A stretch of 64,000 nt of DNA from Zanthoxylum bungeanum. Its lineage: Eukaryota; Streptophyta; Magnoliopsida; Sapindales; Rutaceae. The notes beneath the pieces are model-generated. The model was not told where the DNA came from. It did not search any database and saw nothing but the letters and a program-made list of their open reading frames with translations. Positions within the stretch are counted from its first letter, which is position 1. Each line of letters begins with the position of its first letter. A program made the position numbers and the translations under genes. Location of the stretch: NCBI GenBank assembly GCA_019454045.1, contig SKCR01049650.1, forward strand, positions 308,421 through 372,420, given 5' to 3'. Positions 1 through 63,832 of this stretch are shown here, in pieces.

Positions 1-288
1 ATATGAAAAATTTGGATTCAATATTAAATTGAGTTATACTAAATTTTTTATAATCTTCAATCACACTTGCTTTAAGAATAATTCACAGTTAAAATTTAAT
101 TATACTTAATTATTATTCAATTACTACCAATAATAATTTATAAATTAAAAGAAAACACTAATTAAGAAGCTCAGATCAACTCAACACCAAATCCAAATCC
201 AAAAATGACATGACATAGATTTAAGCGTAAATTTCTATAAATTAGCATAAGTAATACAAGATTATAATTATAATTTGTAAAATTACAG
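1..288 (+). other. 3' part of the LBD4-like gene intron
   Basis: AT-rich sequence ending in a pyrimidine/AT stretch and the acceptor ttgtaaaattacag at 275-288, directly before an in-frame LOB-domain exon. LBD genes usually carry one intron at this place in the conserved domain, so the first exon (zinc-finger-like C block and GAS block) should lie left of the window. No coding sequence was seen here. Confidence 0.8.
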
Positions 289-2608: not shown

Positions 2609-3357
2609 TGTTGACGGCTGATTTTTGGTCTCAGGGTAATATGGGAATATCACTCCCGAAGAAATCCTCCCTCAATAGTGAATTTGTTTGGTTATGGGGG
2701 ACCAAAAGCAAACTTAGCGAAAAACAGATAAACACACCAATCAACAAGGAGATTTAACGTGGTTCGGTGGATTTGGATCCGACCTACGTCCACGGGCACA
2801 AACATGATGATACTTTTATTACTTAAACACTCTTTTCGGGTCTCTACAAGTCAGAGCTTGAAGATTCAGATCACTAATTTTTTGATGATTTTGAGGATGA
2901 TTTTGATCATGCCTTTTACACATGCTATGCCCTCCTATTTATAATAACACAGAAATCAGACTCCTATTTGCATAAGAAATCCTAATTGAACTTAGTCTCT
3001 TCTCTTTGCAATGATTCCTAGCCTGATATTCCCTTCTCTTTTCTTATTCCTTTTCGGATTCTAACTTCATTTCCTTGTGAGAGTGGGATAACTCGTTTTA
3101 TCTTATCCGCAAGAATAGGGTGTCGTCATCTTGAACGCGTCTCACCGCCTGGTCGGTCTTCATGAGGTCGGTCATGACAATTTTTTATACTGAGAGCGTT
3201 TCTGCCGACCTTAAAGTGCTCGGTCATCCGAACCAAAGTGGTCGGTCTTCACATATTATGGTCGGGTCGGTTATATGATCTCAACCAGTCAGGGAATTAC
3301 CCTTCTGTCCTCGTCATGCTGTCTTAAATGTTATAGTGCCTGAAAACACCATCAACA
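2609..3357 (-). repeat. 3' LTR of Tat-1
   Basis: 749 bp, TG...CA ends (tgttgacggctg ... caccatcaaca). Nearly identical to 10835-11583. Read on the minus strand it contains a TATAAATAG box at about 2935-2943, oriented to transcribe leftward. Confidence 0.95.
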
Positions 3358-4143
3358 TATGTCCCCTAGTTCTCGGTTCCAACAAGCGTGCAAGTTGGTG
3401 GCGGGAACTATATAAAGAAGGTGTTTTCTGATTTGCTTTGTTGGAGGTCGGTCCGGTGTCGAGAAATGCTTTGTTGCCTCTTTTCAAGCGCTTTGTCTTG
3501 AGACACGCAACAGTCACGTCCGCTTAAATTCCTGTCAAATCAATTTTAGGGTTTTTTCTAAGTTCGACATTTGTCAAACATCCGCCGGGTTCCCGCCAAA
3601 AAAGGGGACGAATCGACCGTGTAGAGGCGTCTTCACAGTAGGCTGATCTCAGCCATCTGTTTAAACTTGGGAGACCTATTTTGCAGTCGACATCTGGCGT
3701 TCATCCGGGTTCTTCCCTTAGATCCAATGGTCACGAGCGTCTTTGTCATGACTATAAGAAGGCGAGGCTTTCACTGTTCCACCTTTTTCGGCAATTTCTT
3801 CTTCTTTTCTGAAAACATCTCCGTGATTTGTCCAACTCCGAGCTCTCGAAGTTCAACCGTGGGCTTTTTTTTTCTTTTTCTTTGCTGTGAACATAAGGAA
3901 CGGGTATAACCGTACTGCACAACCTCATGCTTTTTCCGAGAAGAACAAGTAAGTCATCTGAACGACTTCTGCCTTTTTTGTGTTTTACGAGTATGTGTTT
4001 GCTAGGAAAAGATTTGCGGTTTGCTGGGTTCTGCTTTAGGGCACTTTAGAGACCACATGTTTAGCTAACATGGAAACCGTGAGTAGTTTCTTGTAGCCAT
4101 AGACTGACTTCCCCTTCCTTCTTTGTTTTTCTGGGTGTCAGGG
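3358..4143 (+). other. Promoter and leader of the antisense gene of Tat-1
   Basis: Internal Tat-1 sequence between the 3' LTR and the antisense ORF. It has no long coding frame. A purine-rich stretch when read on minus (ctaggggacata at 3358-3369) abuts the 3' LTR and is the likely polypurine tract. A plus-strand TATA box and a leader intron (3949-4141: donor GTAAGT, acceptor GTGTCAG) lie here. Confidence 0.55.
3409..3416 (+). promoter_or_regulatory. TATA box for the antisense gene
   Basis: TATATAAA on the plus strand, 52 bp inside the internal region. It points toward the spliced antisense ORF that starts at 4144. A start of transcription near 3440 would give a leader of about 0.5 kb before the intron at 3949. 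Inferred from sequence only. Confidence 0.5.
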
Positions 4144-6594
4144 ATGTCTGACAGCGGTTCCTCCCCTGAAAAGCATGCTAAAATCTCAACTCCCCCTGCT
4201 GAGGAGCTCTCCTCGGGCTTTGGGGCACCTAGTGTAGAAGACCTTGACACTACCCCTACTCCCTCCGAGGTCGAACAAGACTCCTACCATCAGAGGGTTC
4301 CTCGGAAGGACCCAGAGCCTGGTGAACTTGGGTCGTCGGCTCTGGATATGAATCGTCCCTCCAAAATAACTGAGGATGATCTGGCGCTGTTGCGGCAATG
4401 ATACGACATCCCGATAGATATTGCCCTTGAAGTTCCCGGCCCGATGGATCGTGCTAGTCAACCTGATGAGGGCTCGGTGGCACTTCTTCCTGCTTTTTTT
4501 GAGTGTGGGCTGCGGCTGCCGATGCAACGTCATTTTTCTTGGATGCTGGCCGAGATGGAGATTGCCCCTTATCAATTGAGTTTAAATAGTTGGAGGATTC
4601 TGGCCGGCATATATGTGGTTTGGCACCGGCAGGTTTAGGCGTACCTTGCTTGGAAGAGGTGAAGATGTTATATCGTTTGAAGTCCAACCCAAAGACTCAC
4701 TACGGTTGGTATTACCTCTCTGCTTATGATAGCTCGTCCAACCTTGTCCAGAAACTCCCCGACTCCAACAAGAATTTCAAGGACCTTTGGTTCTGGGCTA
4801 CTGGGGATTGGGGTCGGGTCCTGAGATCGTTTGAGGAGGACGTATCGGTTCCGGACATCTTCAGGGCTGGAGGTTAGGAGTTTAATACCCCTTCTTTCTT
4901 TCTTTATTCCCGTTCTTAGTTTCTTAGGTTTCTGACTTCTCTGGTTCCTCCAGCTTGTTGGCGAGATGCTCCCAAGGTTTCTCGTCAGGTTCGGAGGCGG
5001 GTACATTGGGCTCGGGGGTATGCTGCCCACTGGAGGAAGTTGGTCAATGATGCGGCCTTTGTTGAGTCAGGCCTTACTCAGACCGTCCCTCCGGAGGTCT
5101 CGGGTCGGATAGGTAGATGTCTGCCGGCTGTTTTTGTTTATCATGTGTTTTATATTCTCGGGTTCTGATTTCATTTTCCTCCTTTTTTGTAGGTATGTCG
5201 AAGAGGCCTAAGTTTCTTGAGAAGTTGGCCGGTACTATGAAGAAGGCCGGTCACGCGGAAACTGGAACTTCCCGGGAACTACCTGATCCTGCAGGGGCTG
5301 AGAGGGCGTCTCAAGGGAGAGTTCAGCCGGCTGCTCGTGATCTGTCTTCTCCCGGCGCCCAGTCGTCAGGATCTGCTCGTCTTGTTAGTCCGCCGAAGCC
5401 TCTTAGGAAGAGGAGGCGTCAGTTCGGGTCAGAAGAGACCGAGCTAGTCCAAGAGGAGGAGGAGGATCCTGTCCCGGGCCAGAAAAAAGACGCTCGTCGG
5501 GGTAAAAAATCATCCGTGGGCTCCTCAAGAAAGCGAAAGGGTTCTGTAATCTTCGGGGTGGATGACTTGGGAGAAAGCATCCGGGAGGCCACTTCCCATT
5601 TAGTGCCGGCTTTCAATGAATTGGCCGAGGTGATTCCCCCTGGAGAGGTCTCGAGATATGAGGATATCTCGCCCGAGGCTGTGGTGACCGAGATGAGCTC
5701 TCAGATGGCGAAGGTAGTTTTATTTTCTCCTTTTTTTTCTGACTTCGGTTCTCGGTTCTCTTCATATCATATCATGACCTTTTTCTCTTCTTCTTTTTTT
5801 TGCAGGCTACTTACCTCATGGCCAAGAATAAGGACCTTCTTCTGAGTCTGTTGTCCGAGGGTGGTCAGGCTCAGAGGCTTCAGAATCATCTTACAGAGGT
5901 GGAAGCCAAGCTGGCCGACCGGGAGGAGGTGATAAGGAACCTTGAGTCGACTGCCATTGAGAACTTCAAAATTAATAAGGCTCTTAAGGTTGCTGCTGCG
6001 CTGGAGCGAAAGCTTGCTGACAATGCTCGGGAGGATTTGAAGACCGCCCAATCTGAAATTGGCGTTTTGAAGGCCAATGTGGCCAGTGTTGAAACAAAAT
6101 TGAAGGCCAATGAAGAATAAATGGCGCGGGCCCGGGATGACTTTGAGAGGAAAGAGGCCGAGCTTGAGGAGAGAGAGGCCGATCTTGAGGCCGAGAAGGA
6201 GGCCATCCGCCTTAAGGGGGTTAGTGATTGTGCTGATCTGATACCGATGGTGCTGCCCAGTCTGAACATGGACCCTATTCATGCGGCCATCAGTTTTTGC
6301 AAGGGGGACATAGATGAGGAGGAGTTTCGGAAGTGGCTTCCTCCTCCTTCCGATGAGGTGATGGATCCTGCCCCGGTTTCGATTGTTCCGGCTTCTGAGG
6401 CTCCCCATGAAGGACGACCTGAGGTTTCTGCCGCAGGCGAGGACTTCCTTGAGATCCCTCCCCCTATCCCTGAAGCAGAGGTCTCCCATGCTGCCGAGGA
6501 TGAAGCAGCTATTTTTCCTCCTGAGGCCGAGCCAATCCTTCCGTTGTCTGAGCGAGCTGAGGAAGAAATCCCCCTCCCTGCGCGGGCTGTATGA
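4144..6594 (+). pseudogene. Antisense spliced ORF of Tat-1 (PF04195-like domain plus coiled coil), broken
   Basis: An extra gene on the strand opposite gag. Coding exons 4144-4872, 4954-5112, 5193-5713 and 5806-6594 join in phase at all three introns (GT...AG; phases 1, 1, 0). Exon 1 contains an AFFECGLRLPMQRHF..ML..MEIAPYQLSLNSWRIL region (4485-4605) like the 'putative gypsy type transposon' family PF04195, followed by a Trp-rich segment (WYYLSA, LWFWATGDW). The second exon adds HWARGYAAHWRKLV. The third is basic and low-complexity (RKRRR, RRGKKS). The last is a long coiled coil (about 5820-6220) and an acidic Pro-rich tail. Lesions: TGA at 4399-4401, a frameshift at about 4590-4640, and TAA at 6118-6120. 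Antisense extra ORFs with this domain are known in Tat-lineage elements; the function is unknown. Otherwise well conserved, so the decay is recent. Confidence 0.75.
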
Positions 6595-6757: not shown

Positions 6758-7200
6758 GAGGGGTACAGCCCGACCCCGATCTGAGTAAAAGACTCGGGTT
6801 CTGGGGGAATGTTACCTCCCCAATACAAAGGAGCATGTCTCGGTGGGACGTAACCCGACCCCGAGCTGAAAAAACTTGGACCTAGGGGAATGTTACCTTC
6901 CCAGTCCGAAGAAACCGACTCGGTGGGACATAACCCGACCCCGAGCTGAGTGAGATACTTGGCTCTGGGGGAATGCTACCTCCCCAGTCCAAGGAAACCG
7001 ACTCGGTGGGACATAACCCGACCCCGAGCTGAGAGAGATACTTGGCTCTGGGGGAATGCTACCTCCCCAGTCCAAGGAAACCGACTCGGTGGGACATAAC
7101 CCGACCCCGAGCTGTGTGAAAGACTTGGACATGGGGGAATGTTACCTCCCAGTCCGAAGAAACCGACTCGGTGGGACATAACCCGACCCCGAGCTGAATA
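6758..7200. repeat. 82-bp tandem repeat of Tat-1, block 1
   Basis: The landmark cggtggga recurs at 6841, 6921, 7004, 7087 and 7169 (spacing 80, 83, 83, 82), each followed by cccgaccccgagctga and a ggggaatg..acctccccagtcc segment. An older, divergent unit precedes it at about 6758. Read on the minus strand the units give a repeating Ser/Gly/Pro peptide, which is an artefact. Repeats in this place, 3' of pol, are typical of Tat elements. Confidence 0.92.
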
Positions 7201-7945: not shown

Positions 7946-8390
7946 ATGTCCCTGAGGACCCCGAGCTGAATGAAACACTTGGCTCTGGGGGAATGTTACC
8001 CCCCCCAGTCCAAGGAAACTGACTCGGTGGGACGTAACCCGACCCCGAGCTGAATGTGACACTTGGCTCTGGGGGAATGTCCCGTCCCCAAACCAATGAG
8101 CATGACCCGGTGGGACGTAACCCGACCCCGAGCTGAAAAAGGCACTTGGACCTGGGGGAATGTTACGTCCCCAGTCCGAAGGGCTGACTCGGTGGGATGT
8201 ACCCGACCCCGAGCTGAAAAAGGCACTTGGACCTGAGGGAATGTTACGTCCCCAGTCCGAATGGCTGACTCGGTGGGATGTACCCGACCCCGAGCTGAAA
8301 AAGACACTTGGACCTGAGGGAATGTTACGTCCCCAGTTCGAAGGGCTGACTCGGTGGGATGTACCCGACCCCGAGCCAGAAGACCTCGGC
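7946..8390. repeat. 82-bp tandem repeat of Tat-1, block 2
   Basis: The cggtggga landmark recurs at 8025, 8108, 8190, 8271 and 8352 (spacing 83, 82, 81, 81). The last three units share variants not seen in block 1 (gatgtacccg, acctgaggg), so they were amplified locally. Confidence 0.92.
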
Positions 8391-8483: not shown

Positions 8484-9068
8484 TTACAAAAAGACCTCGG
8501 TTTCCTCAGCTGCAGTGAGTCGGGCATTTTTGTTTGGCCAGGCGCCTGGGCTTCTGTCTTCTGCTTCTTCTCCCTGGTTCCTTTGTCGTTTTCGGTTGTC
8601 TTCTGTGATGCAGAGAGTTTCTCGTGAGAGAGTAGCGAAGCAGCTGCGAGCTGTTTTCTGGCTTCCGCACACAATCCCGATCCCTTCCCGGGTGGGGAAT
8701 TTCAGTTTCAGGTGGTAGTAGGACATTGCGGCTTTTTTCTTCATCATGAAGGGTCGCCCGACGATGGCCTGGTAACTACTCATGCAGTCTACAACAGTGA
8801 AGTCTGTCATGATCGTTCGGGTCCGAGGATGTGTCCCGACAGTTATTGCCAACTGTATCCTCCCTAGTGGGATGACGGCTGATCCTCCGAAACTGTATAA
8901 GGGAGTGCTATCGTTGGTCAGGGTTGCATATTCTACCCCTAGGTCGTCTAGTGCTTCTCTAGAAATTATGTCAACTGCGCTCCCGGGGTCCACTAGGATT
9001 CTATCTATCTCCGTCCCGCTGATGACTGCCTTGATTATCAGTGCATTGTCATGAGGGAAACTTACTCC
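8484..9068 (-). pseudogene. Retroviral-type aspartic protease of Tat-1
   Basis: Continues the gag frame after the in-frame TGA at 9069-9071. The active-site loop is DPGSAVDI (about 8967-8990), in place of the usual D-T/S-G of retropepsins. Downstream is the flap/fold segment ..PLGRIQLAITVG.. and the hydrophobic YQAIVGRPFM strand, giving the single-domain retropepsin order. The protein should cut the gag polyprotein. Normally RT, RNase H and integrase would follow in the same frame. Here the frame passes GIVCGSQKTARSCFATLS and ends around 8484 just before the tandem repeats, so the rest of pol is missing. Confidence 0.8.
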
Positions 9069-9071
9069 TCA

Positions 9072-10782
9072 GGTATCCTCATCAGTGAACATTATTGGTA
9101 CCGATCGACCTCCCTGTAGCCTTGAGACCTGCTCTGTTTCTAAGACATCTGGTCCTCGGGTTCTGCTGTAATCTTTCCTTGACCGGTTAGAGTTTCCGGC
9201 CAGCGTTCTTCCTCCTGCGATGATATTGATTTGGCGACCACGTGCTCTTTGTCTGGCTGTCATGACCTCGTGGTCAATGTACTTGTTGAGATACCCGTTT
9301 CGTGCTAGATCTTCCATTTGCTCTCGCAGATCTTTACATTCGTCTGTTGCATGTCCTTTGGAGTTGTGGTGCACACAATAAGCCTTTTGGTTCCTTTTGT
9401 CCGGGGGGAATCTCCTTTGGTCGGGTTCCACTAAGAGACCTTTCCCCTGGATCTCCATGACAATTTGCCCTAGTGGTTTCTTTAGGGGAATGTATGCATC
9501 TTCCCCGACCACATGGTTTACTTCGGTCGGAACCCTTCTTTCTTGGTTGTCTCGGTGCAGTGGTTTGAATTCTTTGTGCTTCGGGGGTGGTTTTCTGAAT
9601 TCTCTTTCTGTTCAGCGGGGGGCACCCTCCCTTGCGGTTCTTTCTTTGATGGTGTTCCCTTTTCGGGATACTTTTTCTTCGTTCTCTAACAAAACGAATT
9701 TTCGGGCCACCTCCAGAGCGGTGGCGTAGTCCGGGGGGTGTCTTGGATCCTTAGATGGGTCCATAGCCTTCCGACCTTCAAGGCTCCCTTCAAGCTTTCC
9801 AAGGCCTCGGGGGATTCATACCCTCCGACTTCGAGTACCATATTATGGTATCTTTCAATAAACATCTTCAGAGGTTCATCGTCTCCTTGTTTCATAAGCC
9901 TTAGTTCTCCAATCGTCTTTCTGGGGACACAAGCCCCCTTGAAGTGTCGTATGAATGAATTTTTCAGTTGTGCGAAGCTGCTGATGCTTCTTGGGGCTAG
10001 GCTTCTATACCATAGAATGGCCGGTTCGGCTATAGTTAAGGGGAACACTTTGCAGATGGCGTCCCCTGTTACCCCTTGCACCTCCATTAGTAGGACAAAA
10101 CCTTCAATGTGAGTTTTGGGATCGGTATGGCCCTTGTATGGTGTCATGGTTGGCATGCTGAATCTTTTTGGGAATTTCTCTGATTTTATTTCTTCTGTGA
10201 GGGGGGACTCATCTTTTCCGTCCTGGACATCCCCTCTGTTTGCATTGGGGTATACTCCCCATTTGACCAGCTCCTCTCGCAGCCAAGATTTCATGCTGCT
10301 ATCTTTGGTTCCATTCCGCATCCTGCGGTCTCCTTTCTTTCTGTTATCCCGGGGGTGGTGCCTCTCGTGCCGGTATCTTCTCGTACTTCTTCGTCATATT
10401 CTTTCTCCTTTCGCCGGGTGTTGCGAGGGCTATCATAGGAGGGGTCTGGTGATGATTTGTCACTCTCTTCCTCCAATGTATCCTCGGTCTGGGAATCTTC
10501 CTGAACCACTATAGATTTTACCCTGTAAGGATCCCTCCTCCAGGGTCTGTCGTCCTCACTTATATCGACAATTCTCTTTCCTTCTGCTATGTCGTTCCTT
10601 CATCGGCTAGTCCCGGCCTCGAATTTTCCGTTGTGTGCTCCTTCTATCATTTCCAACCGGTCTACTATGGTTTTTAGCAGAGTTTGGCTTTCCTCCCTTT
10701 CTTTCCTAAGGTTCTCCTCAATCTTCTCCATCCAATCTGCAGCCGAGCTCCCTGATGGTTGGTGGCTTCCGTCTTCTGCCAT
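9072..10782 (-). pseudogene. gag of Tat-1, with stop and frameshifts
   Basis: Capsid/nucleocapsid gene in element sense. The likely start is the ATG at 10782-10780 (MAEDGSHQPSG). The N-terminal part has a short Lys/Glu helix, then an acidic/basic linker. The retrotransposon gag domain (PF03732-like) lies in 9686-10321, with the hallmarks MTPYKGHTDPKTHIEGF, ILWYRSL and NSFIRHF. A CHHC zinc knuckle, C-X2-H-X4-H-X4-C (YCVHHNSKGHATDEC), lies at about 9335-9380. Lesions: in-frame TGA at about 10600, a frameshift near 10300, a second near 9700-9750, and TGA at 9069-9071 before the protease. The GC content is above that of the AT-rich flanks. Domain order and PBS fit Tat. Confidence 0.85.
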
Positions 10783-10834: not shown

Positions 10835-11583
10835 TGTTGACGGCTGATTTTTGGTCTCAGGGTAATATGGGAATATCACTCCCGAAGAAATCCTCCCTCA
10901 ATAGTGAATTTGTTTGGTTATGGGGGACCAAAAGCAAACTTAGCGAAAAATAGATAAACACACCAATCAACAAGGAGATTTAACGTGGTTCGGTGGATTT
11001 GGATCCGACCTACGTCCACGGGCACAAACAGGATGATACTTTTATTACTTAAACACTCTTTTCGGGTCTCTACAAGTCAGAGCTTGAAGATTCAGTTCAC
11101 TAATTTTTTGATGATTTTGAGGATGATTTTGATCATGCCTTTTACACATGCTATGCCCTCCTATTTATAATAACACAGAAATCAGACTCCTATTTGCATA
11201 AGAAATCCTAATTGAACTTAGTCTCTTCTCCTTGCAAGGATTCCTAGCCTGATATTCCCTTCTCTTTTCTTATTCCTTTTCGGATTCTGACTTCATTTCC
11301 TTGTGAGAGTGGGATAACTCATTTTATCTTATCCGCAAGAATAGGGTGTCGTCATCTTGAACGCGTCTCGCCGCCTGGTCGGTCTTCATGAGGTCGGTCA
11401 TGACAATTTTTTATACTGAGAGCGTTTCTGCCGACCTTAAAGTGCTCGGTGATCCGAACCAAAGTGGTCTGTCTTCACATATTATGGTCGGGTCGGTTAT
11501 ATGATCTCAACCAGTCAGGGAATTACCCTTCTGTCCTCGTCATGCTGTCTTAAATGTTATAGTGCCTGAAAACACCATCAACA
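10835..11583 (-). repeat. 5' LTR of Tat-1
   Basis: 749 bp, same length as 2609-3357, with 10 substitutions and no indels by eye. Minus-strand TATAAATAG at 11161-11169 is the likely promoter for gag. Confidence 0.95.
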
Positions 11584-11588
11584 GATTT
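11584..11588. repeat. Target-site duplication of Tat-1 (right), GATTT
   Basis: Exact match of 2604-2608, immediately after the CA end of the right LTR. Confidence 0.95.
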
Positions 11589-56151: not shown

Positions 56152-56156
56152 AGACC
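56152..56156. repeat. Target-site duplication of element E (left), AGACC
   Basis: Exact copy at 63828-63832. Confidence 0.95.
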
Positions 56157-56791
56157 TGTACGGGCCAAATTTGGACCCAAGGGTAAAATCATCTTTCACC
56201 TTAAACCCAACAATATACAAGGCCCGAAAGTAAAGACCAGGCCCAAAGAATTCTGTATTATTGGATTACAATTGAGCTATAAGCTTAAGGACAAAACCTC
56301 TTAATTATATCAACCACTTTTCCCCACTTTGCCTAACACAAGGCATATTCTCACATGCTCAAACTTTTATCAAATGTCCGGGCACGTTGTGGGACTATGC
56401 CAGCTGCCAAAGACGATCTTTTTCATCTATAAATAGCAACGCAATTCAAGAAACAAGAGGAGGAAGCGGGGCTTCTGAACTCGCTTCACTTCTTTCTGAC
56501 AAGCCTCTGCTATCTGACACTGGCTCTCTCAGAGTACTCCATCCCCTTATACACTTTTCATCGCCCTCACGGCCACCCAAAGAGGTCTAAGGTAACATCA
56601 AACCTTGCTTTCACATTTTACATATTTACTGCTCATTTCATACTACTGACTTGGGCGTCGGAGTGCCCCCGGCACCCACCACATCGGTGGGTAGTCTACT
56701 CCCGCTCACTCTGCCTTTGTCTTGCAGGATCGCTAATGCCCCCAACCTACAAATTCTGATTGTGGACCTCAGCCGAATTCCAGCATCCACA
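56157..56791 (+). repeat. 5' LTR of element E
   Basis: TGTACGGGCC...CATCCACA, 635 bp. TATAAATA at 56428. A strong hairpin, ACCCACC-acatc-GGTGGGT, lies at about 56676-56694. A splice-like donor AAG|GTAACA (56592) and acceptor TTGCAG (56722-56727) are present. Reading frames inside are not supported as genes. Confidence 0.95.
56428..56435 (+). promoter_or_regulatory. TATA box of LTR E
   Basis: TATAAATA in catctataaatagcaacg, 272 bp into the LTR; identical in the 3' LTR (63464-63471). Confidence 0.65.
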
Positions 56792-56794
56792 ATT

Positions 56795-56812
56795 TGGCGC
56801 CCACCGTGGGGC
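56795..56812 (+). other. Primer binding site of E
   Basis: TGGCGCCCACCGTGGGGC, 3 nt after the LTR. Same first seven bases as the Tat-1 and Athila PBS, different remainder, so a different tRNA or isoacceptor. Confidence 0.8.
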
Positions 56813-57700
56813 CTTAGCGATTCATTGCAAGCAAATACCACTCGATCTACAATCTTTACAAACAGACACCAGATCCTGTAGTGGCATAATCAGCCACCCT
56901 ACATAACATTTACAATCAATGGAAGATGAAAATTGATCCATGTAAAACTCGAGTACTAATCTCCAATAGTAGCGTGAGGCTACAAGTCATTTCAACTATC
57001 TTATCAAACTCAATCTCTTATGAGCATTCAAGAATATGGCAAGTGAAAATTCATCATCAAACAACCATACATTTAATCACTAAAAAGCCATCACATTTCA
57101 CCAGCAGACCTTTCACAACAAGTCACATCTTCCGTGTGAAAGGAAATGTTGGAGTAATTATCTCCAATCTACACTCGAAGAAAGCACTCTGCCACATGTA
57201 GTCCTTAAACAAATGTAGACGGTAAGAATAGCCTACTATGAGACCACATGCTAGATCATATCTGTAAAATTATATTCAAAGAAGAGATGATTGTGGGGTT
57301 CACTCGACAAAGCCACATGCAAAGGAGAAATTGTCCATTCGACAAAACACCATGCACAGGCCAAGACATATGGGATCCAACTTGATTTAAAATGACCAGG
57401 TCCCATTCGACACTACAAGATATTCTGATTTTTGAAAACCATCAGATAAGTATAGTGGAAATAATACCTCTCTTTATTCCACCATTCACGAACCATCCCA
57501 TATGCATAAACATCATACGCCTACAAAAGATGTAAGCTTATCACCCATCACCTTGAAAATCCCATGATACACTCCATACAGAAAGAGACAAATCATGCAT
57601 GGCCTAGCCAACATACGCCTTCATTAACACATCCATACAAGCACAATATATGTTTGCTTTCATGGCTTGCATGGCGCATTTTTGGACATACCAGTTGACC
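56813..57700 (+). other. 5' non-coding part of E
   Basis: No start-to-stop frame with gag features. Sequence is unique in this window and the open frame at 56926-57201 has no motif I recognise. Confidence 0.5.
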
Positions 57701-57720
57701 ACTAAACATTCAACTCTCGC

Positions 57721-58380
57721 TTGTGTTTCATACTTGTAGTTTCTTTCATTTTTATTTTTGGATTTTTTAAGTCTACATGCAAGCATATTCAAGTGTGGCA
57801 TGAAGTATTTTGGCTTGGCTTTTTTGACTATACATACAAGCATATTCACGTGATCCATGGAGTGCTTTGGCTTGGATTTTTTGAGTCTACATATAAGCAT
57901 ATTCACGTGATTCATTGGGTGCTTTGGCTTGGATTTTTTGAGTCTACATATAAGCATATTCACGTGATTCATTGGGTGCTTTGGCTTGGATTTTTTAAGT
58001 CTACGTGCAAGCATCTTCACGTGTAGCATGAAGTATTTTGACTTGGCTTTTTTTTTACTCTACATACGAGCATATTCATGTATAGCATGAAGTATTTTGG
58101 CTTGGCTTTTTTGACTATACATACAAGCATCTTCACGTGATCCATGGAGTGTTTTGGCTTGGCTTTTTTGACTCTACATACGAGCATCTTCAAGTGTAGC
58201 ATGGAGTGCTTTGGCTTGGCTTTTTTGACTCTACATACCAGCATATTCACGTGTAGCATGGAGTTCTTTGGCTTGGCTTATTTGACTCTACATGCTAGCA
58301 TCTTCACGTGATCCATGGGGTGCTTTGGCTTGGCTTTTTTGACTCTACATACAAGCATCTTCACTTGTAGCATGGAATGA
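57721..58380. repeat. 57-bp tandem repeat of E, ~11 copies
   Basis: The ttggcttgg landmark recurs at 57811, 57868, 57925, 57982, 58039, 58098, 58155, 58212, 58269 and 58326. Spacing is 57 except one 59. 57 is divisible by 3, so both strands stay open for long stretches: 19-residue peptide repeats (HVNMLICRLKKSKPKHPMN) on minus and aromatic-rich ones on plus. I treat these as by-products of the repeat length. Confidence 0.95.
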
Positions 58381-60391
58381 TTATATGAAAGGTCTCATTT
58401 TTTACTCGACACAAGTAGTACGTGTAGCTTTAGGAAGAAAATAAGGGGCAGGCTTCAACGAAAGTCAAAATAATAATATGCTTTCTTGGTGTATGTGGAG
58501 CATGAACACAAAGCCAAGCAACAAAACTATTCTCCATACGACAAGGTGGATGGCTATCCACTTCAGGCTACATGGAAAACTCCCATCTCTCCTAGACTAC
58601 TTGGAATGATTGTCAACTCCTCCAGACTAAATCAAAGGTTAGTTATATTCTTCATGCTACATTAATTACACCAACTCGAGACTACATAGGGAATCTATTA
58701 ACATGCCTAGTCAAATGAAGAACTTTCTTAGACCTCCTTTAGGTCCAATCGACCAACCTTTATCAAGTTAGGTAGTATGGAAATTTTGTGTGACTTTCAT
58801 CAAACTTTATTCCATTATAGTATCATTGACCTTATTCAAGTATTGTATAATTAGTAATGACATCGATAAGCATCAATTTCTTCCATACTACATATTAGGG
58901 TAATCATTTCCATACGTAGTATGGAGATTATCATCCATTATATACTTTATGGATAGATTTCCATAAACTCTTGAGAGCATTGGAAAAGTCTCATGAACCT
59001 TATCAGTTTCATTCGACAATAGTCTCGTGGTCAGGTAGAATGAAGATTCATTTGGACTTAGACCAAGTTCATTCGACCATAGCTTCATGGACCTTCATTA
59101 GTTTCATTCGACAGTAGTCTCGAGCCTTTGTCAGGTCTAGTAGAGTGAAGATTTTTATATACATTCACTAGGTTCATGCGATAGTGTCTCATGGACCCTT
59201 ATCAGGTCCATTCGACAATAGTCTCATGGATAGGTAGAATGAAGATTCCCATAAACCTTCATCAGGTTCATTCGAACGTGACTTCTTTGGACTTTCATCA
59301 AGTCCATTCGACAAGTCCAGTCGACAGTAGTCTCATAGAAGAGTGAAGAGTGATGACTTTCATCAAGTTCATTCCATTGTAGCATCATATACCTTCTTCA
59401 GGTCTAGTATAGTGAGTAATGACCTCCTTGGACTTCCATCAAGTCCATTCGACCGTAGTCTCGTAGAATAGAGATTACATTAATAGCTTTCATCAAGTTT
59501 ATCTATTGTAGTGTCATAGATCTTCTTCAGGTTTAGTATAGTGAGTGCTGACCTTGGACCCTTATCACGTTCATTCGACGACTCCATTCGATAGTAGTAT
59601 CGTAGAAGTATGAAGAGTGATGACCTTGACAGATATTCTTCAAGTTCATTCTACCATAGTCTCATGGACCTTCATCAGGTGTAGAAGAGTGAGTAATGAA
59701 TTCTTTGGATTTTCATAAAGTCCATTTGATAAGTCCATTCGACCGTAGTCTCATAAATCCTCATCAACAGAATGAGTAATAACCTTGATAGATATACATC
59801 AAGTCAATGCGACATGTTCATTCGACAGTAGTCTCGTGACCTTCATCAGGTCTTGTAGTATGAAGATTCTCATAGATATTCATTAGGTTCATTCGACTGT
59901 GCCTTATAGACCTTCATCAGGTCCATTTGATAGTCCATTCGACAGTAGTATCATGGACCTTCATCAGAACTAGTAGTATGAGAAGGAAAGACTCTCATAG
60001 ACCTTCTTCAGGTTTAGTAGAGTAAAGATCCTCATTGACTCATATTAGATCGTGTAGAATGAAGAATGAAGACCCCGTGGATCTTCATCATATACGGAAT
60101 GTGTAGACTCTCATGTACCTTCATCAGGTATAGTGGAATGAGTAAACTTTACTTTGACCTTCATCAGGTCGGGAGGAGTAAACTCCCATATACCCCCATT
60201 AGGTATAGTGGAGTGTGTAGACTTTCTTGGACCTTCATCGGGTAATGTAAACTCTGATGTACTTTTTCAAGTGTTGTAGAATGAAATCTTCTTAAACTTT
60301 CATCAGATCTAGTATCTATAGACTCCTTTGTACTTTTATCAATATGTATGGTCGTCTTGATACATAAGACAATGAAACATCCTCCATATGG
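58381..60391. repeat. Irregular 'cattcgac/ttcatcaggt' repeat region of E
   Basis: Dozens of scattered, diverged copies of 'accttcatcaggt', 'tccattcgacagtagtctcatgg' and 'agtagagtgaagat' without a fixed period. They look like the decayed ancestor of the regular 137-bp array that follows. No coding frame supported. Confidence 0.7.
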
Positions 60392-63010
60392 GACATCCCT
60401 CATTGGCTCATGTAGAGTAAAGTTGAAGACCTGGCCTTCATCTGGTCAGGCGATATTGTAAATTCCCCTAGTCCTTTGACCAGTAGTATGGGGATTATCC
60501 TGACCTTCATCTGGTTCAGTCGACCGGGGACATCCCCCATTGGCTCAAGTAGAGTCAAGTTGAAGACCTGGCCTTCATCTGGTCAGATGATATTGTAAAT
60601 TCCCCTGGTCCTTTGACCATAGTATGAGGATTATCCTGACCTTCATCTGGTTCAGTCGACCGGGGGTCATCCCCCATTGGCTCATGTAGAGTCAAGTTGA
60701 AGACCTGACCTTCATCTGGTCAGACGATATTGTAAATTCCCCTGGTCCTTTGACCCGTAGTATAGGGATTATCCTGACCTTCATCTGGTTCAGTCAACCG
60801 GGGACATCCCCCATTGGCTAATGTAGAGTCAAGTTGAAGACCTGACCTTCATTTGGTCAGATGATATTGTAAATTCCCCTGGTCCTTTGACCCGTAGTAT
60901 GGGGATTATCCTGACCTTCATCTGGTTCAGTCGACCGGGGACATCCCCCATTGGCTCATGTAGAGTCAAGTTGAAGACCTGGCCTTCATCTGGTCAGACG
61001 ATATTGTAAATTCCCCTTGTCCTTTGACCCGAAGTATGGGGATTATCCTGACTTTCATCTGGTTCAGTCGACCGGGGACATCCCCCATTGGCTCATGTAG
61101 AGTCAAGTTGAAGACCTGGCATTCATTTGGTAAGACGATATTGTAAATTCCCCTGGTCCTTTGACCCGTAGTATAGCGATTATCCTGACCTTCATCTGGT
61201 TCAGTCGACCAGGGACATCCCCCATTGGCTCATGTAGAGTCAAGTTGAAGACCTGGCCTTCATCTGGTCAGACGATATTGTAAATCCCCTGGTCCTTTGA
61301 CCCGTAGTATGGGGATTATCCTGACCTTCATCTGGTTCAGTCGACCGGGGACATCCCCTATTGGCTCATGTAGAGTCAAGTTGAAGACCTGGCCTTCATC
61401 TGGTCAGACAATATTGTAAATTCCCCTGGTCCTTTGACCCGTAGTATGGGGATTATCCTGACCTTCATCTGGTTCAGTCGACCGGGGACATCCCCCATTG
61501 GCTCATGTAGAGTCAAGTTGAAGATCTGGCCTTCATCTGGTCAGACGATATTGTAAATTCCCCTGGTACTTTGACCCGTAGTATGGGGATTATCCTGACC
61601 TTCATCTGGTTCAGTCGACCGGGGACATCCCCCATTCACTCATGTAGAGTCAAGTTGAAGACCTGGCCTTCATCTGGTCAGACGATATTGTAAATTCCCC
61701 TTGTCCTTTGACCCGAAGTATGGGGATTATCCTGACCTTCATCTGGTTCAGTCGACCGGGGACATCCCCAATTGGCTCATGTAGAGTCAAGTTGAAGACC
61801 TGGCATTCATTTGGTAAGACGATATTGTAAATTCCCCTGGTCCTTTGACCCGTAGTATAGCGATTATCCTGACCTTCATCTGGTTCAGTCGACCAGGGAC
61901 ATCCCTCATTGGCTCATGTAGAGTCAAGTTGAAGACCTGGCCTCATCTGGTCAGACGATATTGTAAATTCCCCTGGTCCTTTGACCCGTAGTATGGGGAT
62001 TATCCTGACCTTCATCTGGTTCAGTCGACCGGGGACATCCCCTATTGGCTCATGTAGAGTCAAGTTGAAGACCTGGCCTTCATCTGGTCAGACAATATTG
62101 TAAATTCCCCTGGTCCTTTGACCCGTAGTATGGGGATTATCCTGACCTTTATCTGGTTCAGTCGACCGGGGACATCCCCCATTGGCTCATGTAGAGTCAA
62201 GTTGAAGATCTGGCCTTCATCTGGTCAGACGATATTGTAAATTCCCCTGGTACTTGACGACCCGTAGTATGGGGATTATCCTGACCTTCATCTGGTTCAG
62301 TCGACCGGGGACATCCCCCATTCACTCATGTAGAGTCAAGTTGAAGACCTGGCCTTCATCTGGTCAGATGATATTGTAAATTCCCCTGGTCCTTTGACCC
62401 ATAGTATGAGGATTATCCTGACCTTCATCTGGTTCAGTCGACTGGGGGTCAGCCCCCATTGGCTCATGTAGAGTCAAGTTGAAGACCTGACCTTCATTTG
62501 GTCAGACGATATTGTAAATTCCCCTGGTCCTTTGACCCGTAGTATGGGGATTATCCTGACCTTCATCTGGTTCAGTCGACCGGGGACATCCCCCATTGGC
62601 TCATGTAGAGTCAAGTTGAAGACCTGACCTTCATTTGGTCAGACGATATTGTAAATTCCCCTGGTCCTTTGACCCGTAGTATGGGGATTATCCTGACCTT
62701 CATCTGGTTCAGTCGACCGGGGACATCCCCCATTGGCTCATGTAGAGTCAAGTTGAAGACCTGGCCTTCATCTGGTCAGACGAAATTGTAAATTCCCCTG
62801 GTCCTTTTACCCGTAGTATGGGGATTATCCTTACCTTCATCTGGTTCAGTCGACCGGGGACATCCCCCATTGGCTCTTGTAGTGTCAAGTTGAAGACCTG
62901 GCCTTCATCTGGTCAGAATACATTATAGATTCCTCTGGTCCTTTGACCCATAGTATGAGGATTTTCCTGAACTTTCATCTGGTTCAGTCGACCGGGGACA
63001 TTCCTCACAG
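60392..63010. repeat. 137-bp tandem array of E, ~19 copies
   Basis: The gacatccc landmark (gtcat/gtcag in two units) occurs at 60392, 60529, 60666, 60803, 60940, 61077, 61214, 61350, 61487, 61624, 61761, 61898, 62034, 62171, 62310, 62448, 62585, 62722, 62859 and 62997. Spacing is 136-139. The unit is 'gacatcccccattggctcat..gaagacctggccttcatctggtcagacgatattgtaaattcccctggtcctttgacccgtagtatggggattatcctgacc..tcgaccgggg'. It has higher-order structure (see findings). Confidence 0.97.
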
Positions 63011-63192
63011 CTAAATGTCAAGCCAAGTTGAAGACTTGGACTACTCTTAGTCCAAAAGGCATTGAATTATCTCTATCGTGTGTAACATGAACTATGCACT
63101 CTCAACATGTACTTTTACATCTTGTTTCGTTCGACACGTATAAAATACTCTCTAAATCAAGAACTTCTTGACTTAGAGAATATGGGACAAAC
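63011..63192 (+). other. 3' end of E interior with PPT
   Basis: Short unique stretch after the array. gagaatatgggacaaac at 63176-63192 is the likely polypurine tract adjacent to the 3' LTR. Confidence 0.6.
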
Positions 63193-63827
63193 TGTACGGG
63201 CCAAATTTGGACCCAAGGGTAAAATCGTCTTTCACCTTAAACCCAACAATATACAAGGCCCGAAAGTAAAGACCAGGCCCAAAGAATTCTGTATTATTGG
63301 ATTACAATTGAGCCATAAGCTTAAGGACAAAACCTCTTAATTATATCAACCACTTTTCCCCACTTTGCCTAACACAATGCATATTCTCACATGCTCAAAC
63401 TTTTATCAAATGTCCGGGCACGTTGTGGGACTATGCCAGCTGCCAAAGACGATCTTTTTCATCTATAAATAGCAACGCAATTCAAGAAACAAGAGGAGGA
63501 AGCGGGGCTTCTGAACTCGCTTCACTTGTTTCTGACAAGCCTCTGCTATCTGACACTGGCTCTCTCAGAGTACTCCATCCCCTTATACACTTTTCATCGC
63601 CCTCACGGCCACCCAAAGAGGTCTAAGGTAACATCAAACCTTGCTTTCACATTTTACATATTTACTGCTCATTTCATACTACTGACTTGGGCGTCGGAGT
63701 GCCCCCGGCACCCACCACATCGGTGGGTAGTCTACTCCCGCTCACTCTGCCTTTGTCTTGCAGGATCGCTAATGCCCCCAACCTACAAATTCTGATTGTG
63801 GACCTCGGCCGAATTCCAGCATCCACA
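63193..63827 (+). repeat. 3' LTR of element E
   Basis: 635 bp, five substitutions relative to 56157-56791, no indels. Confidence 0.95.
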
Positions 63828-63832
63828 AGACC
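63828..63832. repeat. Target-site duplication of element E (right), AGACC
   Basis: Exact copy of 56152-56156 after the CA end of the 3' LTR. Confidence 0.95.

Follow-up and report, generated by a model that had tools for sequence, protein, structure and literature searches.

Gene organisation at the locus

The window analysed here, a 64,000-nucleotide stretch of the Zanthoxylum bungeanum genome (contig SKCR01049650.1, positions 308,421 to 372,420), contains an LTR retrotransposon on its minus strand, identified as such by two LTRs, a GATTT target-site duplication and a gag gene. The 3' LTR (2609-3357) and the 5' LTR (10835-11583) are both 749 bp long and differ at 10 positions, and the duplication flanks them at 2604-2608 and 11584-11588. 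The gag gene (9689-10393, PF03732, E 3e-9) and a weak aspartic protease match (8487-9068, PF13650, E 0.01, below cut-off) are both encoded on the minus strand, in agreement with the first-pass annotation, which had placed the gene under study on the strand opposite gag. Two tandem arrays, one with 5.2 copies of an 83-bp unit (6769-7197) and the other with 5.1 copies of an 81-bp unit (7957-8376), sit between the protease and the antisense gene.

The antisense gene model runs along the plus strand. A TATA motif, TATATAAA, read by eye at 3409-3416, 52 bp inside the LTR end at 3357, is a putative antisense promoter, and is followed by a putative leader (5' UTR) intron with GT-AG ends (3949-4141); both had been predicted previously and both were found in place. 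Coding exon 1 (4144-4872) begins with the ATG and carries a PF04195/TRP28-like segment, and is separated by intron 1 (4873-4953) from exon 2 (4954-5112). Intron 2 (5113-5192) precedes exon 3 (5193-5713), which encodes a mildly basic linker with runs that by eye resemble nuclear localisation signals, and intron 3 (5714-5805) leads to exon 4 (5806-6594), encoding a coiled coil and then an acidic, proline-rich tail. The proposed arrangement of four plus-strand exons and three introns holds with respect to its GT-AG borders and compatible phases, but the reading frame is not open, as exon 1 contains one in-frame stop and one frameshift and exon 4 contains another in-frame stop. The window copy is a pseudogene.

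The coding introns of the window copy are T-rich, with a T fraction of 0.48-0.57 compared with 0.21-0.27 in the exons. Among 40 aligned sequences of the family (see below), the commonest exon lengths total 2199 nt, a multiple of three, and retention of intron 1 would introduce an in-frame stop within three codons in 38 of the 40. The stop in exon 4 of the window copy is common to two of these sequences and that in exon 1 to seven, suggesting that the latter is either a mutation hot spot or a sign that broken copies multiply too.

Elsewhere in the window, a second LTR element (56156-63828) has terminal repeats of 637 bp that are 99.2% alike, internal arrays with units of 57 bp (10.8 copies) and 137 bp (19.1 copies), and a single ORF of at least 120 aa (151 aa); it is array-rich with little coding capacity. 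Many repeated blocks of 0.17 to 3.1 kb with 72-96% identity, apparently nested elements, occupy 12900-39100. An open stretch on the plus strand at 286-618, which we take to resemble the C-terminal end of a transcription factor of the LOB-domain (LBD) type, is possibly the nearest host gene.

Splice sites and open exons among genomic copies

The family sample consisted of 39 other loci that, with the window copy, form the best 40 of 4403 candidates matched on exon 1 in the 3.96-Gb genome, so that the sampled copies are those closest to exon 1 of the window; one of the 39 (L030) is truncated where its contig ends. Each of the eight splice dinucleotides, including those of the leader intron (donor GT in 39/39, acceptor AG in 38/39), is intact in 36-39 of the 39 copies, and all three coding introns have GT-AG borders in 33 of the 40 sequences. 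A TATA[AT] motif is found near the site of the TATA motif in 30 of the 40, the window copy counted.

Individual exons are open in many of the 39 copies: 11 for exon 1, 26 for exon 2, 14 for exon 3 and 12 for exon 4. As aligned, no member of the 40 can be read through all four spliced exons without interruption, and no intact gene in one piece was therefore recovered from this sample. Lengths out of phase with the commonest length occur in 20, 8, 10 and 17 of the 40 sequences for exons 1-4, and in 17, 23 and 24 for introns 1-3, so that length phase by itself is weak support for the model. Three ENA-derived exon 1 proteins of 244 aa end one codon beyond the predicted donor, as expected from reading into intron 1, and one ENA-derived exon 4 protein is open across 262 aa; all four are encoded on other contigs, whose source may be this species or a close one.

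Searches of the genome for exon junctions (up to 3 mismatches) gave the unspliced exon 1/intron 1 junction at 713 places, compared with no place for the spliced exon 1/exon 2 junction; the intronless exon 3/exon 4 junction was likewise found nowhere. Processed intronless copies, considered as physical proof of splicing, were accordingly not obtained at either of these junctions. In an LTR element, the LTR drives transcription of the genomic RNA in the direction opposite to an antisense gene, whose introns are therefore not spliced from it. Rounds of retrotransposition would thus leave the introns in place, the genomic RNA being complementary to the antisense transcript and without these splice sites, and the 713 unspliced against zero spliced exon 1/exon 2 junctions agree with this.

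Selection on the spliced frame

Variants shared by at least four copies are concentrated at the third codon position of the spliced frame (0.239 per site, compared with 0.064 at position 1 and 0.053 at position 2; 732 sites each; chi-square p about 1e-33), while singletons are found at 0.18 per site at position 3 against 0.25 at both other positions. We then estimated omega from biallelic columns in 31 of the 40 sequences, L030 and near-identical copies having been removed. Read in the spliced frame, the shared variants, 85 synonymous and 38 nonsynonymous, gave an omega of 0.17. Shifting the frame in either way left no constraint, with values of 1.94 and 3.33. Singleton variants, private to one copy, gave 1.10. 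By exon, from 1 to 4, omega was 0.02, 0.10, 0.14 and 0.27 for shared variants and 0.53, 1.34, 1.12 and 1.55 for singletons; the low singleton value of exon 1 may stem from the choice of copies by exon 1 similarity, which lowers the diversity of that exon. Pairwise NG86 estimates over 740 pairs gave a dN/dS of 0.316, with dN smaller than dS in all 740. To judge from these comparisons, the pattern is that of a protein selected in the source copies, with largely neutral decay of the individual insertions. The family is under purifying selection, though the window copy is broken.

A sister subfamily and distant relatives

A related exon 1 protein (P0002), used as query, identified a sister subfamily, for which 150 of 16,648 candidates were scored and the best 30 loci taken; 20 of these 30 have no stop in the match. 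The donor GT and acceptor AG are present in 30/30 and 28/30 loci for intron 1, and again in 30/30 and 28/30 for intron 3. The acceptor of intron 2 is kept in 30/30, and its donor is found at the same place in 3 loci and exactly 3 nt downstream in the other 27. Allowing this phase-keeping shift, all three introns are intact in 26 of the 30 loci. Conservation of the splice sites among family members, singled out by the first-pass annotation as a check on the model, is therefore observed both here and in the copies closest to the window (36-39 of 39). Upstream of the ATG, a loose GTAA donor-like motif lies within 300 bp in 29 of the 30 sister loci, and a TATA-like motif at 500-900 bp in 17.

Comparison between the subfamilies covered exons 1-3 of five window-group copies and the 30 sister loci, of which 31, 33 and 27 of 35 sequences, respectively, were retained after those with more than one stop per exon had been dropped. 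Exon 1 gave a dN of 0.140, a dS of 1.408 and a dN/dS of 0.099, and the ratios for exons 2 and 3 were 0.218 and 0.306, values that are approximate because dS is near saturation. The splice sites thus persist at a dS of 0.6-1.5. The dN/dS test suggested beforehand gave ratios well below 1, both for shared variants (0.17) and between subfamilies (0.10-0.31). The gene itself is, on this comparative evidence, genuine although the window copy is dead, with four coding exons and three short T-rich introns, and with both the spliced protein and the splice sites kept under purifying selection in the source copies.

Three more distant PF04195 loci were also inspected. L081 has a single frame of 363 aa, suggesting that the introns may be absent from some of these genes. 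L082, whose PF04195 family shares about 24% identity in exon 1, has breaks that look like donors and acceptors at about 1240-2140 on its reverse strand, past the TRP28 region and ahead of the coiled coil; seen by eye in one locus, this is a lead that it perhaps has the same exon layout. L080, about 1 kb shorter than L082, was considered as a splice-derived copy, but the two sides of its breakpoint overlap by 3 bp (TGA) and GT-AG is absent there, so that the difference was read as a plain deletion. In the genome-wide PF04195 search, many of the 146 matches end near position 41 of the 69-position profile, which could mark an exon border within the domain in other families, or just divergence.

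Pol domains and lineage of the element

No reverse transcriptase (RT) was found in the pieces of the window element scanned against Pfam, and the first-pass annotation had regarded the element as lacking RT. Six contigs are common to the exon 1 and the protease lists of the genome searches; the spacing from the exon 1 start to the protease is 4376 bp in the window copy, 4615 bp in one other contig and 7559-8050 bp in the remaining four. Pol domains were scanned in two of the four long-spacing relatives, both of which bear the same antisense gene as the window element. L049 encodes RT and RNase H (RH) in one ORF, followed by RVT_3/RNase H and then by integrase. L048 encodes RH and RVT_3 in one ORF and then integrase, with no RT match among the ORFs scanned. 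The RNase H, second RNase H and integrase of these two relatives, with the RT match in L049, imply that the absence of RT is not a family trait: the description stands for the window copy and fails for the family. On this domain evidence, the family has members that look autonomous, the window copy being a pol-deleted form; judged by spacing alone, the lack of RT would extend to the one other short-spacing contig.

A second RNase H (aRH) between RH and integrase is common to Ogre and Retand elements (PMC6317226), and its presence in both pol-bearing relatives would place the family with the Ogre/Retand-type Tat elements. PF04195 is reported as a hallmark of Retand, present in 97% of clusters (PMC11963269), and the PF04195-like ORF described here agrees with Retand in strand and in position, between the pol site and the 3' LTR, with domain scores below cut-off. 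The same survey lists two clusters in which gag and TRP28 remain but RNase H and integrase are missing, in a table that has no RT column (PMC11963269). Taken together, the gene is most probably an aORF-3R of the TRP28/PF04195 type in a Retand-like Tat family of Ty3/gypsy elements.

Features of the predicted protein

The PF04195 match in exon 1 of the window copy scores 21.4 bits against a Pfam cut-off of 26.2 (E 3e-4), and five relatives match with E values from 3.3e-5 to 7.6e-3; all six matching exon 1 sequences or pieces score below the cut-off. The PF04195-like segment proposed earlier is thus present in exon 1, but at a score that Pfam would not accept. The fold model of exon 1 has a pLDDT of 41, so that DNA binding gains no support here, and a PDB sequence search with the exon 1 alignment gave no match up to an E value of 1. 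The net charge of exon 3 ranges from +2 to +21 in 12 sequences. The model of a related exon 4 protein consists of a 146-residue helix, with pLDDT mostly above 90, and a low-confidence tail, supporting the predicted coiled coil, and among the 12 copies with an open exon 4 the tail is acidic and rich in proline. Against NCBIfam, the exon 4 protein gave 11 weak matches, a number of them to SMC or Rad50 coiled coils and all far below cut-off.

Proposed function and alternative explanations

Combining these analyses, we consider that the locus holds the decayed copy of a spliced, Retand-like antisense gene within a pol-deleted element, and that the gene would encode a nuclear regulator acting in trans, an explanation to which, taken as a whole, we assign a probability of about 0.78. 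The best reading of the gene is a separately promoted, spliced accessory gene for a coiled-coil regulator that is probably nuclear. Transcription by RNA polymerase II would begin at the internal TATA, a short way in from the 3' LTR, and run towards the pol position, and the resulting antisense mRNA would be spliced and translated. The product, of roughly 730 aa, would probably enter the nucleus, given its NLS-like runs and the precedent of Grande GENE23, and may self-associate via the coiled coil, with the TRP28 region and acidic tail acting on element DNA or chromatin. As an outcome, transcription or silencing of the family may be adjusted in trans. This functional step, a nuclear regulator of element chromatin or transcription, is drawn largely by analogy.

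The gene had been put forward as worth testing for a role as an element regulator or a packaging helper, both of which are inferential; no result favours packaging. A protein that works in the particle, in packaging, as a nucleocapsid or in transport of the pre-integration complex, and not on transcription or silencing, seems doubtful, though a coiled coil with a mildly basic linker would also suit RNA binding or assembly, and the pol-deleted window copy retains gag and this gene, albeit broken. A putative promoter of its own outside the LTR and the nuclear location of the Grande counterpart (PMC7264820) argue instead for a nuclear role, and no gag-like fold was shown. The spliced transcript might alternatively matter as RNA and not as protein, modulating the genomic RNA through double-stranded RNA, a mode of regulation raised for such transcripts (PMC7264820). 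Constraint at the protein level would be unexpected for a purely RNA function, and we regard this as quite improbable, although an RNA role could add to that of the protein. It is similarly hard to see the gene as a captured host gene or fragment carried as passive cargo: an antisense gene with introns is what the uptake of genomic sequence in opposite orientation could produce, but the gene occurs in many copies and in diverged subfamilies, under selection, and PF04195 has been described as typical of Retand itself (PMC11963269), so that, on the element copies compared, capture has little likelihood.

Scarcely credible is the remaining explanation, that the open frames arose by chance opposite element-sense sequence and that the joined model is an artefact of reading. 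The stops and frameshift of the window copy and the 20 of 40 sequences with exon 1 out of phase would be in keeping with it, as would a 286-aa element-sense ORF opposite exon 4, where 5 of the 14 copies whose exon 4 measures 789 nt are stop-free on that strand. We considered that ORF as a real gene and rejected it, for it has no Pfam match, the constraint lies in the spliced antisense frame, and the variation would fall on the first codon position of that ORF. The constraint on shared variants is seen in the spliced frame only and is gone in both shifted frames, its phase is consistent over all four exons, and the splice sites are still kept at the divergence between subfamilies. Within the family, the chance-frame explanation is refuted by this frame-specific constraint together with the between-subfamily comparison.

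One specific form of the nuclear regulator may be envisaged by analogy with the VANC proteins of VANDAL transposons. VANDALs are DNA transposons, unlike the present LTR element. VANC acts on the noncoding regions of the element that encodes it, which form fast-diverging tandem repeats (PMC10398659), and the present element has tandem arrays too; the likeness is used as a working analogy only. A self-promoted anti-silencing factor of this kind would multimerise by way of its coiled coil, bind the 81/83-bp arrays or the LTRs and strip repressive chromatin from the family, pol-deleted members included. We consider this unlikely in such detail; were it true, the antisense, intron-bearing design would yield a spliced mRNA like those of the host and leave the genomic RNA unspliced.

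Relation to known elements and implications

Antisense accessory ORFs are widespread in Tat/Retand elements, with their function left open (PMC7264820, PMC11963269), and whether extra ORFs have any function has been questioned, with SIRE elements as an example (PMC6317226). The TRP28 ORFs of Retand (Vicient 2025, PMC11963269) share with the present gene the location between the pol position and the 3' LTR, the orientation antisense to gag, the PF04195-like segment, and the SMC-like domains and tandem arrays of that region. That survey scored single ORFs, mainly of at least 600 bp, whereas four coding exons, conserved introns and measured selection are described here. Gene23 of maize Grande is likewise an antisense accessory gene in a long 3' internal region (Gomez-Orte 2013, as described in PMC7264820 and PMC11963269), with its own promoter and a nuclear protein (PMC7264820), and is likened to the present gene by description only. 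Ogre is also a Tat element with an intron between coding parts, gag-pro and pol, but that intron belongs to the sense strand and is removed from a fraction of the polyprotein transcripts (PMC6317226), in contrast to the antisense introns reported here. Antisense TRP28 genes, a promoter of their own and a nuclear protein are thus known already (PMC11963269, PMC7264820). In the main texts of PMC11963269 and PMC7264820 no word starting with 'intron' occurs, and conserved introns in such antisense genes were not found in the literature searched, a set outside which lie the gene23 paper and a 2011 survey. As far as the searched sources go, the conserved multi-exon structure with measured selection is new.

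If such genes are split by introns, surveys of single ORFs, with thresholds of 600 bp (PMC11963269) or of 250 codons in getorf (PMC6317226), would fragment them. This might help to explain the short TRP28 ORFs of the Camellia and Sambucus clusters (PMC11963269), and also the finding of PF04195 in 23% of Retand elements (PMC6317226). The splice-site and selection evidence provides a concrete full-length gene model and, if the model is true, a clean case of an element keeping introns through RNA-mediated copying.
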